Shown one piece after another: positions 18,561-57,768 of a stretch of DNA of 64,000 nucleotides. How positions within the stretch are numbered: position 1 is the stretch's first letter; each line of letters starts with the position of its first letter. The notes beneath the pieces were generated by a model. It was not told the origin of the DNA. It made no database searches and saw nothing but the letters and a program-made list of their open reading frames with translations. The stretch is taken from the NCBI GenBank assembly GCA_016235745.1, contig JACRJA010000065.1, positions 62,001 through 126,000 of the forward strand, read 5' to 3'. The DNA is from Rhodocyclales bacterium (GTDB lineage Bacteria; Pseudomonadota; Gammaproteobacteria; Burkholderiales; Rhodocyclaceae). The translations under genes were made by a program, and so were the position numbers.

Positions 18561-19099
18561 GCTTTCCTTCACTGCCTGCGCTCGCCTCGCTTTTGGCCGC
18601 GTTCCTGCTGGCCGGCTGCGTCGAGGCGCCTCCTTCGGACGTGACCGACATCCAGCAATGGATGGAGGAGTCTGCCAAGGGGCTGAAAGGGCGGGTCCCG
18701 CCGCTTCCTGAAGTCAAGCCGTTTCCTTCTGTGGCGTACAAGGCCCAGGATTTGCCCGACCCCTTCGACTCTGGCCGCTTGGCCCCGCCGGCGCTCAAGT
18801 CGGCCAAAGGAGAAGGCTTGCCTGCGCCAGACATGAATCGGCCGCGTGAGCCGCTCGAGCGTTTCTCGCTCGAAGAGCTCAAGCTCAGAGGGCTGCTGCG
18901 CCGGGGCAACGAGATCCGGGCGCTGATCGAGGCGCCAGATGGGGTTTATCCCGTCACGGTGGGCTCCTATCTCGGACAGAATTTCGGCCGGGTCGTGGCG
19001 ATCGAGGAGCTCAAGGTCAGGATCGAAGAAATGGTGCAAGATGACGAACGGCGCTGGATCAAGCGGCCGGTGGAATTGAACTTGGAGGAAAAACCATGA
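18557..19099 (+). CDS. pilP: Type IV pilus assembly lipoprotein PilP
   Basis: Lipobox LAGC; YPVTVGSYLGQNFGRVVAIEELKVRIEEMVQDDERRWIKRPVEL. Confidence 0.94.
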   Translation: MSFPSLPALASLLAAFLLAGCVEAPPSDVTDIQQWMEESAKGLKGRVPPLPEVKPFPSVAYKAQDLPDPFDSGRLAPPALKSAKGEGLPAPDMNRPREPLERFSLEELKLRGLLRRGNEIRALIEAPDGVYPVTVGSYLGQNFGRVVAIEELKVRIEEMVQDDERRWIKRPVELNLEEKP

Positions 19100-21252
19100 T
19101 TCGCGAAGCGAGGGAAAAACGGGGGTTCAGGGCCGAGAGGGGCGTCGCGGCAGGCTGGTCGGGAGTCCTTGCCTTTGGACTTTGCCTGGTCCTGCTCTTG
19201 GGCGGATGGCATCCGGTGAGAGCCCAGGAGCAGAGCGCCCTCCTCAAAGACGTCTCCCTCGTCGAGTCGGGCCAGGGAGGAATGCGCGTCGATTTCGCCT
19301 TCGAGGGGAGCGTCGCCAATCCCTCGCATTTCGCGCTCACCAGCCCGTCGCGCATCGTCATCGATTTTCCCAATGCGAAGAGCCAGTTGGGGGCTCCCTC
19401 GCGCGAGATCAAGCGCAACGGCATCGAACGGATCTACGCGGTCGAGGCGGCCGGCCGCTTGCGCGTCGTCCTCGCCCTGTCGCAGCCGATGACGTACCGC
19501 CTTGCCCCGATCGGCTCGGGCTGGGGCGTGGAGCTCGATGCCGCGGCTGGAGAGGGCGCAGCGAGCAAGGTGCAGGAGACGCTGGCCGCTTATCAGACGC
19601 AGGCAGCCGGAGCTGGGCAATCCCCGGCTGCGGTAGTCGCCGCCCCTTCGATCCTCTCGGCCGACTTTCGGCGGGGAACGAATGGCGAGGGCAAAGTGAT
19701 GGTGAATCTCTCCACTGCCGAGATCGCGCCTGACCTGCGCCGCGCCGGCGAGCGCATCGAGGTCGTCTTCCCCGAGACGGCTCTGCCGCAGGAGCTCTAC
19801 CGGCGCAGCGACGTGACCGATTTCGCCACGCCGGTGCAGAGTTTCCGCTTTGAACGGCGCGGGCGCGACACCGTGCTCGTGATCGAGCCCAAGGGGAACT
19901 GGCAGCACACCGCCTATCAGGCCGACACGCTCTTCGTCGTCGACATCCAGCCCATCCAGGAGGATCCGAACAGGGCGATCGTGGGCCGGCCGCAATACAA
20001 GGGCGAGCGGCTCACCCTCAACTTCCAGAACATCGACGTGCGCGCCGTGCTGCAGGTGCTGGCCGACTTCAGCGGGTTCAACCTCGTCGTCTCCGACACC
20101 GTGCAGGGAACCATCACCCTGCGTCTGGTCGACGTGCCCTGGGATCAAGCCCTCGACATCATCTTGCAGAACAAGAAGCTCGACAAGCGTCAGCAAGGCA
20201 ACGTCATCTGGGTCGCCCCGGCGCAGGAGATCGCCGAGCAGGAGAAAGTGCAGCTCGACGCGTTCAATCAGCGCATCGAGAAGGGGGTGCTGGTCACCGA
20301 GAGTTTTCAGATCAATTACCACTCGGCGGCCGAGATCTACCAGATGATCTCGAATGACAATACCAGCGGCGGCGGAAGTGGCAACACGAAAAAAATGCTC
20401 TCCGACCGCGGCATGGCCACCTTCGACATGCGCACCAACAAGCTCTTCGTCACCGACGTCGAGGAGCGTCTCCAGGCGGTGCGGGAACTCCTGAAGCAGA
20501 TCGACGTGCCGCCGCGCCAGGTGGTGATCGAGGCGCGCATCCTCGAGGTGACGTCGAACTTCGGCAAAGAGATCGGGGCCAGGCTCAATACCGGCGACAG
20601 GCCACTCATTTCGGCCGATTACTTCAATGTCGGGCCGTTCAACCGACCGTTCTACCAGCAGAGCTCGCTGCCTGGGGGTCAGTTCTCGACGTTCGCCTTG
20701 TCGATCTTCAACCGCTCGGCCACGCGTTTCCTCAACCTCGAATTGAATCTGGCCGAGGTCACGGGCAAGAGCCGCATTCTGTCCAATCCGAAGATCATGA
20801 CGGCGAACAACATCGAGGCGCGTATCGCCGTCGGCGATGAGATTCCCTACACGACGACCTCCACGGTCGGCAACATGACCTCGCAGGACGTCCAGTTCAA
20901 GGAGGCGTTACTCGAATTGCGGGTGACTCCGGTGCTCACCCCCGACGGGCGTGTGCGCATGAAGGTGGTCGTGCGCAAAGACCGGGCGGACTTCTCCCGC
21001 TCGGTTCAAGGCAATCCGCCGATCATGAAAAAGGAGGTGACCACGGATGTGCTCGTCGATAACGGAGGCACCGTCGTGCTCGGCGGGCTGTTCGAAGAGA
21101 CCGAGACCAACGTGGTCGATAAAGTGCCGGGGCTGGGTGACATCCCCGTGTTCGGCAACCTCTTCCGCAACAATGCGGATACGACGCAACGCACCGAACT
21201 GATGGTCTTTCTCACGCCGCGCATCGTCGCCGAAGATCTGCGCCTGCGCTGA
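19096..21252 (+). CDS. pilQ: Type IV pilus secretin PilQ
   Basis: AMIN-type N-terminus, NFQNIDVRAVLQVLADFSGFNLVVSDTVQG, IEARILEVTSNFGKEIG, VPGLGDIPVFGNLFRN. Confidence 0.97.
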   Translation: MIREAREKRGFRAERGVAAGWSGVLAFGLCLVLLLGGWHPVRAQEQSALLKDVSLVESGQGGMRVDFAFEGSVANPSHFALTSPSRIVIDFPNAKSQLGAPSREIKRNGIERIYAVEAAGRLRVVLALSQPMTYRLAPIGSGWGVELDAAAGEGAASKVQETLAAYQTQAAGAGQSPAAVVAAPSILSADFRRGTNGEGKVMVNLSTAEIAPDLRRAGERIEVVFPETALPQELYRRSDVTDFATPVQSFRFERRGRDTVLVIEPKGNWQHTAYQADTLFVVDIQPIQEDPNRAIVGRPQYKGERLTLNFQNIDVRAVLQVLADFSGFNLVVSDTVQGTITLRLVDVPWDQALDIILQNKKLDKRQQGNVIWVAPAQEIAEQEKVQLDAFNQRIEKGVLVTESFQINYHSAAEIYQMISNDNTSGGGSGNTKKMLSDRGMATFDMRTNKLFVTDVEERLQAVRELLKQIDVPPRQVVIEARILEVTSNFGKEIGARLNTGDRPLISADYFNVGPFNRPFYQQSSLPGGQFSTFALSIFNRSATRFLNLELNLAEVTGKSRILSNPKIMTANNIEARIAVGDEIPYTTTSTVGNMTSQDVQFKEALLELRVTPVLTPDGRVRMKVVVRKDRADFSRSVQGNPPIMKKEVTTDVLVDNGGTVVLGGLFEETETNVVDKVPGLGDIPVFGNLFRNNADTTQRTELMVFLTPRIVAEDLRLR

Positions 21253-21270: not shown

Positions 21271-21308
21271 AAAAAACCCGCTCTCCCTTGCCGGGAGGCG
21301 GGTTTTTT
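21271..21308 (+). terminator. Rho-independent terminator downstream of pilQ
   Basis: aaaaaacccgc-ctcccttgccgggag-gcgggtttttt stem-loop with T tract. Confidence 0.85.
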
Positions 21309-21317
21309 AGGGCACAG

Positions 21318-21452
21318 CGAACAACCTACTGCGCGGCCGCATGGCGGCGTTGCGCGGTGCTCTCAGGCTCGCCTATCTGCATGATATGTCTCGCCTGCTG
21401 CGCTCCGGGCGCCTTGCCCTGAAGCCCCTCGCGACGGTTTTTCGCGGCGCCC
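21318..21452 (+). repeat. 135-bp interspersed repeat, copy A
   Basis: Reverse complement of 57035-57169 matches with about 7 mismatches counted by eye; ends CGAACAACC ... GGTTTTTCG followed by cggcgccc. Confidence 0.93.
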
Positions 21453-21521
21453 TTTAGCGTCCATGCGGCGACGGTTTTTTTACGGTACACTAGCCTCGAT
21501 CAAGGAACGTGAGCGTATCGG

Positions 21522-22082
21522 GTGGAGCCCATCGTGTTCATCGGGATGATGGGGGCCGGCAAGACGACCGTGGGGCGCAGCTACGCGGCGCGGCACGGGC
21601 TGGCCTTCATCGACAGTGACTTGGAGCTGGAGGCGCGCACCGGCGTCTCCATCCCTACGATCTTTGCCGTCGAAGGTGAGGAGGGATTCCGTGAGCGCGA
21701 GGCGCGTCTGCTCGCCGAGCTGCTCGGCCGCGAGGATCTCGTGCTCGCCACCGGCGGCGGGGTGGTGCTGCGGCCGGAGAACCGGGCGCAGCTGCGCCGC
21801 CGCGGCCTCGTGGTCTATCTGCACGTGCCGCCGGAGGTGCTGTGGGAGCGGCTGCGGCACGATCGCCACCGGCCGCTGCTGCAGGTGCCGCAGCCGAGGC
21901 AGCGCATTTTCGAACTCTACGCCCAGCGCGATCCCCTCTATCGCGAGGTGGCCGACGTCGTGGTCGATGGCGGTCGGCTGAAGCCTGCGGCCATGCTCGC
22001 GCGAGTGGAAGAGGCGGTGCGCGACCGTCTGTCGGGCAAGGGGGAAGGAGCGGTGGTGACCGAAGGAGAGCGGGATGCGTGA
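21522..22082 (+). CDS. aroK: Shikimate kinase
   Basis: [12 protein letters not shown] Walker [43 protein letters not shown] start. Confidence 0.95.
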
Positions 22083-55092: not shown

Positions 55093-56343
55093 ATGTACGA
55101 AGGGTTCATCGGCTGGCGCTACACGCGCCGGCAACGCGGCACGCGCGGGCGCAATGCGTTCGTGTCGTTCATCTCGCTGGTGTCCATGCTGGGCCTGATG
55201 CTGGGGGTGGCCGCGCTCATCGTGGTGCTGTCGGTGATGAACGGTTTTCAGGACGAGCTGCGCCATCGCATCCTGGGAGTGGCCTCGCACATCGAGGTGA
55301 CGTCCCAGAGGGGGATGCTCGAAGAATGGCCGGCGGTGCTCGACCGGGTGCGCCGCCATCCGGAGGTGCTCGGCGCCGCACCTTTCATCCAGGAACAGGC
55401 GATGCTGAGCGGCAACGGCCGCGTGCAGGGCGTGGGGGTGCGCGGCATCGAGCCAGCGCTCGAGCGCGGCGTCGCGCAGTTCGCCGACTATCTGCGCGCC
55501 GGCAGCCTGGATGCCTTGCAGCCGCATTCCTATGGGATCGTTTTGGGCACGGATCTGGCACGTCGCCTGGCCGTGGGGCTGGGGGACGAAGTGACGCTGA
55601 TCGCGCCCACGGCCACGGCGACGCTTGCTGGCGTCATGCCGCGGGTGCGCGCTTTTCGTGTGGTCGGGCTCTTCGAATCGGGGATGTATGAATACGATTC
55701 GGGGCTGGTACTGGTGTCTCTGCGCGATGCCCAGGCGCTCTATCGCTACGGCGAGGCGGTCTCGGGAGTGCGCCTGAAGGTGCGCGACCTCTTCGCCGCG
55801 CCGGCCGTAGTGCGCCAACTCGCGCCGACGCTGCCCGCCGGCCTGTGGCTGCGCGACTGGACGCAGACGCACGCCAATTTCTTCCGCGCGGTGCAGCTGG
55901 AGAAGACGATGATGACGCTCATCCTCTTCCTCATCGTGGCGGTGGCGGCGTTCAACATCGTCTCGACGCTGGTGATGGCGGTGCAGGACAAGACCGCCGA
56001 CATCGCCATCCTGCGCACCCTGGGCGCGAGCCCGGCGTCCATCATGGGGATTTTCGTCGTGCAGGGCACCACCATCGGCGTGCTGGGGCTGGCGGCGGGG
56101 CTCGCGCTGGGGCTGGCGATCGCCCATCACCTCGACGTGGTGGTGCCGGCGCTCGAGCATCTCACCGGGGCGACGCTGTGGAACAAAGAGATCTACTTTC
56201 TGAGCGAGCTGCCCTCGAAAGTGCTCGCCGCCGACGTGCTGCGCGTGCTGGGGGGCTCTTTCGTGCTCACGCTGCTCGCCACCCTCTATCCCAGCTGGCG
56301 CGCTTCGCGCCTGCAACCGGCCGAGGCGCTGCGCCATGAGTGA
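55093..56343 (+). CDS. lolC: Lipoprotein-releasing ABC transporter permease LolC/E
   Basis: MYEGFIGWRYTRRQRGTRGRNAFVSFISLVSMLGLMLGVAALIVVLSVMNGFQDELRHRILG; IVSTLVMAVQDKTADIAILRTLGAS. Confidence 0.96.
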   Translation: MYEGFIGWRYTRRQRGTRGRNAFVSFISLVSMLGLMLGVAALIVVLSVMNGFQDELRHRILGVASHIEVTSQRGMLEEWPAVLDRVRRHPEVLGAAPFIQEQAMLSGNGRVQGVGVRGIEPALERGVAQFADYLRAGSLDALQPHSYGIVLGTDLARRLAVGLGDEVTLIAPTATATLAGVMPRVRAFRVVGLFESGMYEYDSGLVLVSLRDAQALYRYGEAVSGVRLKVRDLFAAPAVVRQLAPTLPAGLWLRDWTQTHANFFRAVQLEKTMMTLILFLIVAVAAFNIVSTLVMAVQDKTADIAILRTLGASPASIMGIFVVQGTTIGVLGLAAGLALGLAIAHHLDVVVPALEHLTGATLWNKEIYFLSELPSKVLAADVLRVLGGSFVLTLLATLYPSWRASRLQPAEALRHE

Positions 56344-57028
56344 GACGTCGATGGACCCGGTGCTGGAGGCGCAGGGGCTAGGCAAAGTGTACCTCGACGC
56401 GGGCGCGCCGCTCACCATCCTCGAGGGGGTGGAGCTGGCGATCCGTGCCGGCGAGCGCGTGGCCATCGTCGGCGCGTCGGGTTCGGGCAAGAGCACCTTG
56501 CTGCACCTGCTCGGCGGGCTCGATCGGCCCAGCAGCGGCGAAGTGCGCTGGTCGGGGCAGGCGGTGTTCGCGCTCGACGAGGCGGCCCGCGGGCGGCTGC
56601 GCAACGCCATGCTCGGCTTCGTCTATCAATTCCACCACCTGCTGCCGGAATTCACTGCGCTCGAGAACGTGGCGCTGCCGTGGATGATCCGGCGCCGGCC
56701 CAAGGCCGAGGCCCTGGAACGGGCGCGGGCGCTGCTGTGTGAAGTCGGGCTGGAAGCGCGGCTGGCGCACTTCCCGGCCCAGCTCTCGGGCGGGGAGCGC
56801 CAGCGCGTGGCGATCGCCCGGGCATTGGTGACCGAGCCGCCCTGCCTGCTCGCCGACGAGCCCACCGGCAACCTCGACCGGACCAATGCCGAGCGCGTCT
56901 TCGAATTGCTTCTTTCGCTCACCCGCACGCGCGGCATGGCGCTGGTGGTCGTCACCCACGACGAGCGGCTTGCCGCCCGGCTCGACCGCCGGCTCGCGCT
57001 GGAGGGGGGGCGGTTGACGCAGGCATGA
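56336..57028 (+). CDS. lolD: Lipoprotein-releasing ABC transporter ATP-binding protein LolD
   Basis: VGASGSGKSTLLHLLGGLDRPSSGEV; LSGGERQRVAIARAL; LLADEPTGNLD. Confidence 0.96.
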   Translation: MSETSMDPVLEAQGLGKVYLDAGAPLTILEGVELAIRAGERVAIVGASGSGKSTLLHLLGGLDRPSSGEVRWSGQAVFALDEAARGRLRNAMLGFVYQFHHLLPEFTALENVALPWMIRRRPKAEALERARALLCEVGLEARLAHFPAQLSGGERQRVAIARALVTEPPCLLADEPTGNLDRTNAERVFELLLSLTRTRGMALVVVTHDERLAARLDRRLALEGGRLTQA

Positions 57029-57034
57029 TGCAGG

Positions 57035-57169
57035 GGGCGCCGCGAACAACCGTCGCGAGCGGCTGCAGGGCAAGGCGCCCGGAGCGCAGCAGGCGAGACA
57101 TATCGTGAAGATAGGCGAGCCTGCGAGCACCGCGCAACGCCGCCATGCGGCCGCGCAGTAGATTGTTCG
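57035..57169 (-). repeat. 135-bp interspersed repeat, copy B (inverted relative to copy A)
   Basis: Reverse complement matches 21318-21452 over its full length with about 7 mismatches by eye. Confidence 0.93.
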
Positions 57170-57189
57170 AGGTGCCCAGGGGGGTCGGC

Positions 57190-57768
57190 TCATCCCCCTT
57201 CTTTTCCGCGTGTGAAGCAAGCCGCCGTCGCGCGACGTCGGCTGCGACGTCGGCGCCACTGCTGGATGAGGTGCCAGCGCCACCAGGCGCGCACGAGGAA
57301 ATAGCCTGCGATGGCGAGCGTGCTCGCCAGCACGAAGAGGCCGAAAAAGAGGGGCGTTCCCAGGGACGCTACCCAGGCGAACGCCTGATCCATCCATTCT
57401 CCCAGGCTTTGCTCGCCCCATTCGGGTGCGGGCTGGAAGCCGCCGTCTTCCCGTCCGAGCAGGAAACTGCCGATCTGGAAGGCGGCGAAATAGATCACCG
57501 GGATGGTGAGGGGGTTCGTATAGAGAGTGGTGAACACAGCGACCGGCAGATTGGCGCGAAAGAGGACGCACAGAAGCGCGGCGGTGAGCATCTGGAACGG
57601 CCCGGGGATGAGGCCGCACCACAGACCGACGGCCACCCCCGCTGACACCGAGCGGCGGTTGATGTGCCACAGCCGCGGGTGGAGCAGGGTGTTGCGAAAC
57701 GGGCGCAGCCAGCGGTTGTCGCGTATGACTTCATGATTCGGCAGAATGCGTTTGAACCAGCGCCGCAT
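57190..57768 (-). CDS. DUF2062 domain-containing membrane protein
   Basis: RRSVSAGVAVGLWCGLIPGPFQMLTAALLCVLFRANLPVAVFTTLYTNPLTIPVIYFAAFQIG. Confidence 0.92.
   Translation of the reverse strand: MRRWFKRILPNHEVIRDNRWLRPFRNTLLHPRLWHINRRSVSAGVAVGLWCGLIPGPFQMLTAALLCVLFRANLPVAVFTTLYTNPLTIPVIYFAAFQIGSFLLGREDGGFQPAPEWGEQSLGEWMDQAFAWVASLGTPLFFGLFVLASTLAIAGYFLVRAWWRWHLIQQWRRRRSRRRATAACFTRGKEGG

Follow-up and report, generated by a model that had tools for sequence, protein, structure and literature searches.

A short repeat that occurs twice in a 64,000-nucleotide stretch of bacterial DNA (the window; contig JACRJA010000065.1, positions 62,001 to 126,000) poses the question of what kind of sequence it is: a mobile element, a structured RNA, or a small gene copied from place to place. 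An earlier note, made from the letters of the window, had proposed "MITE/REP-like or structured RNA" and had drawn attention to a micro-ORF kept in both copies. The repeat is very probably a type II MITE, a non-coding element that would depend for its movement on an IS5-family transposase acting in trans. The host genome appears to be that of a Tepidiphilus species; of the four congeners compared with it (G001 to G004), G001 would be Tepidiphilus olei and G004 T. margaritifer.

Alignment of copies A and B over 135 bp, the length first described, gives exactly 7 differences (identity 94.8%), which agrees with the earlier note in coordinates and in number ("about 7"); copy B is indeed reversed relative to copy A. 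Boundaries read from the flanks of many copies make the full element 143 bp, 8 bp longer on the 5' side, with ends GGGCACCTCGAACAACC...GGTTGTTCGCGGCGCCC and 9 differences between A and B. The inverted-repeat ends claimed for it are real, but their length of 9 bp is not: the 9-bp repeat and a "cggcgccc" tail are parts of one imperfect terminal inverted repeat (TIR) of 17 bp, whose left and right versions agree at 14 of 17 positions in both copies. Placement behind pilQ and lolD holds in a refined form. Copy A sits in the interval between pilQ (19096-21252) and aroK (21522-22082), and copy B lies 6 bp past lolD (56336-57028), with a convergent minus-strand gene (57190-57768; DUF2062-like by eye) as its other neighbour. 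Table 1 gives the coordinates.

Table 1. Features of the two window copies and of the sequence around them (window coordinates).
Feature	Position	Strand	Basis or remark
MITE copy A, 143 bp	21310..21452	+	copy search (at least 40 copies), boundary analysis
left TIR, copy A, GGGCACAGCGAACAACC	21310..21326	+	14/17 against right TIR
palindromic core, copy A	21327..21435	+	common to elements with other TIRs in other genera
right TIR, copy A, GGTTTTTCGCGGCGCCC	21436..21452	+	TIR comparison
left 4-bp target-site duplication, copy A, TTTA	21306..21309	.	same as 21453-21456; single unbroken site in congeners
right target-site duplication, copy A, TTTA	21453..21456	.	boundary analysis
MITE copy B, 143 bp	57035..57177	-	copy search (match at G000:C49:119035-119169), boundary analysis
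left TIR, copy B, GGGCACCTCGAACAATC	57161..57177	-	TIR comparison
right TIR, copy B, GGTTGTTCGCGGCGCCC	57035..57051	-	TIR comparison
intrinsic terminator of pilQ	21281..21309	+	copy A inserted at end of T tract
micro-ORF frame of the earlier note	21341..21457	+	not a gene; stop codon outside element

The 2.16-Mb draft genome holds at least 40 near-full-length copies (81-100% identity) beside truncated remnants of the element. Measured against their consensus, forty copies have 1-19 substitutions each (mean 7.5), and most of them keep TIRs at both ends. An exact 4-bp target-site duplication, scored when the four bases before GGG are identical to the four after CCC, flanks 20 of the 40 copies, where 0.16 would be expected; the remaining 20 lack one at the consensus boundary. 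Copy A has TTTA, and other copies have TGAA, TATT, GCAT, TACA, CATT, AATA and more, while copy B has a 3-bp match only, or a 4-bp match if it is slipped by 1 bp. The duplicated bases are A or T in 59 of 80 cases, with C preceding in 11 of 20 and G following in 12 of 20, describing a target of roughly C(WWWW)G. A length of 4 bp is that of the IS5 group, whose members make 4- or 6-bp duplications (table of PMC3281130).

Orthologous sites in the congeners are empty. The pilQ-aroK site is unbroken in all four (e.g. GGGTTTTTTACGCCGTATG) and reads GGGTTTTTTA-(element)-TTTAGCG in the host genome; at the copy B site, the element is missing from three congeners (G001-G003), where the sequence is uninterrupted, and in the fourth the sequence is unrelated. 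Both window insertions are therefore lineage-specific. Insertion points fall outside predicted genes in 23 of 30 cases (7 inside), against 11% of control positions (89% inside). Gene positions for this count come from a GC3-based gene call, used because overlap with plain six-frame ORFs is no guide to intergenic position in so GC-rich a genome. The intergenic bias is as expected for a mobile element, because selection opposes gene interruption: copies would survive mostly between genes, and those landing inside genes would be selected against.

Prokaryotic type II MITEs, as a 2024 review (PMC10969869) defines them, are similar to an insertion sequence (IS) in their TIRs alone, and an IS with closely similar TIRs exists in the same genus. 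A PF05598 search located it in congeners. Full-length copies with ends GGGCACCTCGAAAAACC / GGGAACCTCGATCAACC lie in G004 (L160 407-1700, and L117), and the two halves of their transposase hit NCBIfam NF033581 (IS5 family) at 2e-35 and 7e-17; the split in the ORF keeps these matches under the curated cut-off. Bases just inside the IS TIRs (CCCTCCACC...) are unlike the MITE core, the resemblance being restricted to the TIRs. This IS was found only in defective copies. L160 and L117 share the same kind of interruption of the transposase frame (either an amplified defective copy or an unusual frameshifted gene). Fragments of this GGGCACC-type IS are present in 5 of 5 Tepidiphilus genomes, and degraded copies in the host genome (C37, C22) were found through the TIR pattern; no intact GGGCACC-type IS was found in the host genome or the four congeners, the full-length G004 copies having a disrupted transposase frame. 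A search of the host draft (73 contigs, 94% complete) for an intact transposase yielded fragments only, and a search for PF13586 transposases in it yielded none. Lone TIR matches at C70:14152, C5:14078 and C36:52842, considered as autonomous copies, are truncated MITE remnants and not IS; the one at C70:14152 (L053 1501-1538) is a 36-bp truncated MITE end abutting the 3' end of a PriA-like gene.

The mover would be the transposase of the GGGCACC-type IS or of a close relative, acting on MITE TIRs that resemble its own ends and inserting the element at an AT-rich 4-bp target, of the roughly C(WWWW)G form, to produce the 4-bp duplication. The actual helper may instead be related to the G004 IS, because two remnants of this IS in the host genome start directly after CTAG-like sequence whereas MITE targets are varied and AT-rich, and because the right TIR of the MITE is matched less well by the IS end GGGAACCTCGATCAACC. 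Transposition may by now have stopped, or may depend on an unassembled IS copy.

Matches in relatives break off at element positions 14-20 and 123-130, beyond which other TIRs frame the core. The core is an imperfect palindrome of roughly 105 bp found across Pseudomonadota, and at least 8 TIR types surround it, with 3- or 4-bp duplications (the count comes from manual merging, automated clustering having overcounted through register shifts). TIR GGAAACGCTGAATAA goes with 4-bp duplications such as CTTA and CTGA, GAACGTGTTTTGAAAG with a 3-bp duplication (TNA), GAGGTTGTGAATAAATC with TCA, and CAGGCTGTTGAAAAAC with a 4-bp duplication. A contig scan returned at least 119 stretches with the core, from Halomonadaceae, Lysobacterales, Gallionella, Polaromonas, Rhodocyclaceae, Geobacteraceae, Nitrospira, Troglogloeales and others, where a few assemblies carry the labels Nitrospira, Geobacteraceae or Troglogloeales and contamination is possible in individual MAG records from outside Pseudomonadota. 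Among 399 Pseudomonadota genomes sampled, 23 have a match at E<=1e-6. A plasmid search gave one weak match, and a phage search for the element gave none. One locus, L190 1757-2390 (MAG JAJZUW010000009.1), is unlike the others seen: it has five cores head to tail at a spacing of about 142 bp, with a repeated spacer, AGGCCGAAATGGCCTG.

The 143-nt consensus folds as a long imperfect hairpin (-81 kcal/mol), and when 62 diverse cores are aligned, 91% of the cells of a 32-pair hairpin are paired. Cells changed on both sides number 233, against 82.6 (sd 6.5) in shuffled alignments and 29-49 in slid controls, and the covariation score is 0.302 against 0.091; these figures are to be read with the structure having been derived from the same alignment, with related sequences inflating such scores, with contig-scan sequences having been chosen by exact motifs at two stretches, and with DNA palindromes being able to keep their arms matched via template switching. 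With covariation, homologues in other genomes and far more than two copies, the outcome is the opposite on every point of what the earlier note would have taken for an incidental duplication. The hairpin invites the reading that the repeat is a dispersed regulatory RNA or terminator, transcribed from the upstream gene to stabilise or end its mRNA, with the TIRs as the base of the stem. Strong compensatory change and the position of most copies, intergenic and often no more than tens of bases from the end of a gene, agree with a conserved structure of this kind. Target-site duplications and empty sites demonstrate insertion, however, and in other genera the base of the stem is swapped wholesale for IS-type TIRs. 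No T tract follows the hairpin, copy A already stands behind pilQ's own terminator, and no Rfam family falls on the element at gathering score. Core folding energies are only modestly under those of dinucleotide shuffles (z mostly -1 to -3, with 2 of 11 above 0), and complementary change in a DNA palindrome can come from template-switch correction without selection on RNA. We regard the regulatory reading as quite improbable; of the earlier "structured RNA", hairpin and covariation are borne out, while action as RNA finds no support in this analysis.

Being short, palindromic, intergenic and present in many copies, with CTAC (the complement of GTAG) at one end of the core, the repeat also recalls a REP or REPIN moved by a RAYT (Y1 tyrosine) transposase. 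Yet GTAG is found at a single core end only, the 17-bp TIRs are like those of IS5-family elements, and they are bordered by 3- or 4-bp duplications, which REPINs are not known to make. The chance that the repeat belongs there is vanishingly small, and of the earlier pairing the MITE half stands (on TIRs, duplications, the number of copies, empty sites in relatives and the closely similar ends of an IS5-family element) where the REP half is not borne out, REPs not being known to carry TIRs with target-site duplications. Hardly any credence, either, goes to the idea that a small protein gene (38 aa) is expressed and has been copied to many places, although both window copies, and most of the 40, keep its frame open. 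Distinct substitution types in the micro-ORF number 28 synonymous and 63 nonsynonymous across the 40 copies, a synonymous fraction of 0.308 against 0.309 expected (computed at transition weight 2), with no sign of purifying selection. Several copies have lost the start or have a frameshift or an early stop; reading usually runs out at random with no stop codon inside the element, and the peptide is not conserved in other subfamilies that have the same core. The micro-ORF is present as described, and is neutral, not a gene; the earlier note had not claimed that it codes. What remains is very probably a type II MITE, short (about 143 bp) and present in at least 40 copies, with no frame but a neutral one of 38 aa. 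For annotation, this makes spurious "hypothetical proteins" of the MAALRGARRLAYLHD type recognisable as MITE sequence.

That ends have been exchanged is shown by comparison of the sequences in one related genome, G023. An element with a CAGG TIR (L153) and one with a GGAAACG TIR (L081) have apical hairpins identical at 71 of 71 positions and arms only 59% identical; two elements of the same TIR type (L286 and L288) have arms 95% identical and apices 82% identical. Elements of four TIR types have, at one and the same position, an additional hairpin module some 80 bp long. One or two such modules (TTGGCTTCGGCCGCTTCGCTTAACC...GCCTTCGCCGCAACTTCG) lie within the core at L283, L291, L293, L296, L297, L303, L306 and L312. 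The simplest cause would be that MITEs recombine with one another, or undergo gene conversion, within the palindrome. For two TIR types, an IS5-family partner whose ends are of the matching kind exists in the same genome or genus, and the same is probably true of a third: G023 itself has an intact IS5-family IS with a CAGG-type TIR (L311; 360 aa, NF033581 at 305 bits, cut-off 140), and a transposase remnant adjoining a GGAAACACTGAACAAG end (L313). At L312, a CAGG-type MITE (613-823) lies directly beside a degraded IS5-family IS (867-2186) of the same TIR type. It is unlikely that no ends were ever exchanged and that all TIR types diverged gradually from one ancestor, co-evolving with diverging IS5-family transposases. 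That most TIRs have a G/C-rich outer half and a GAAAAA or GAATAA inner half, like IS5-family ends, and that NF033581-type transposases accompany two of the types, would suit such a history. Gradual divergence cannot yield the G023 pattern without recombination, however, because identical apices span elements with unlike TIRs and outer stems; the module common to four TIR types and the apical differences between copies of the same TIR type also tell against it. For the wider family, one covarying hairpin core probably recombines with different IS-type end pairs. We tentatively suggest, as a reading with nearly as much for it as against it, that the core is a long-lived parasite with replaceable ends, its lineage persisting in Pseudomonadota and beyond by recombining onto the TIR pairs of whichever IS5-family element is available and so outliving any one helper.

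MITEs are usually seen as the dying remnants of one insertion sequence. A constant core with changing ends would, if true, parasitise an entire family of transposases, and end exchange would help to explain how MITEs persist and spread among distant bacteria. The searchable literature, with subscription journals mostly outside its scope, gave neither the core strings nor TIR-exchanging bacterial MITEs; prior description (e.g. in ISfinder) is possible. Compared with an IS5-family IS, the present element is alike in TIR sequence type, in its 4-bp duplication and in having a similar-ended IS in the same genus; unlike such an IS it is 143 bp long, has no transposase, and enters varied AT-rich tetramers where two IS remnants lie beside CTAG-like sequence. 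QMITE1 and QMITE2 of Coxiella burnetii (PMC5896051) are likewise hairpin MITEs, with about 50 copies per family and internal basic-peptide ORFs, and variable ends are noted for QMITE1. Their duplications, however, are of 2-3 or 7-11 nt, no helper is identified for them, and QMITE1 is reported in one species only; sRNA expression is demonstrated for QMITEs. ERIC / RU-1 sequences are palindromic. By description, the 127-bp intergenic mobile sequence ERIC / RU-1 (PMC2759123) is similar in having internal ORFs and differs in being enterobacterial. In the excerpted text of the review (PMC10969869), the Chunjie MITE of Geobacter uraniireducens also has dozens of mainly intergenic copies; compared by that description only, its conserved TIRs and variable internal length are the opposite pattern. 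Type II MITEs in general, in the same text, are alike in size (50-500 bp), in TIRs and target-site duplications, and in mobilisation in trans without a transposase of their own; that text describes no exchange like that of the present family, in which TIRs vary around a palindromic core that is kept from one bacterial family or class to another. The window element itself represents a new IS5-type MITE family of an ordinary kind; what is unexpected to a specialist is the core family that exchanges its ends.
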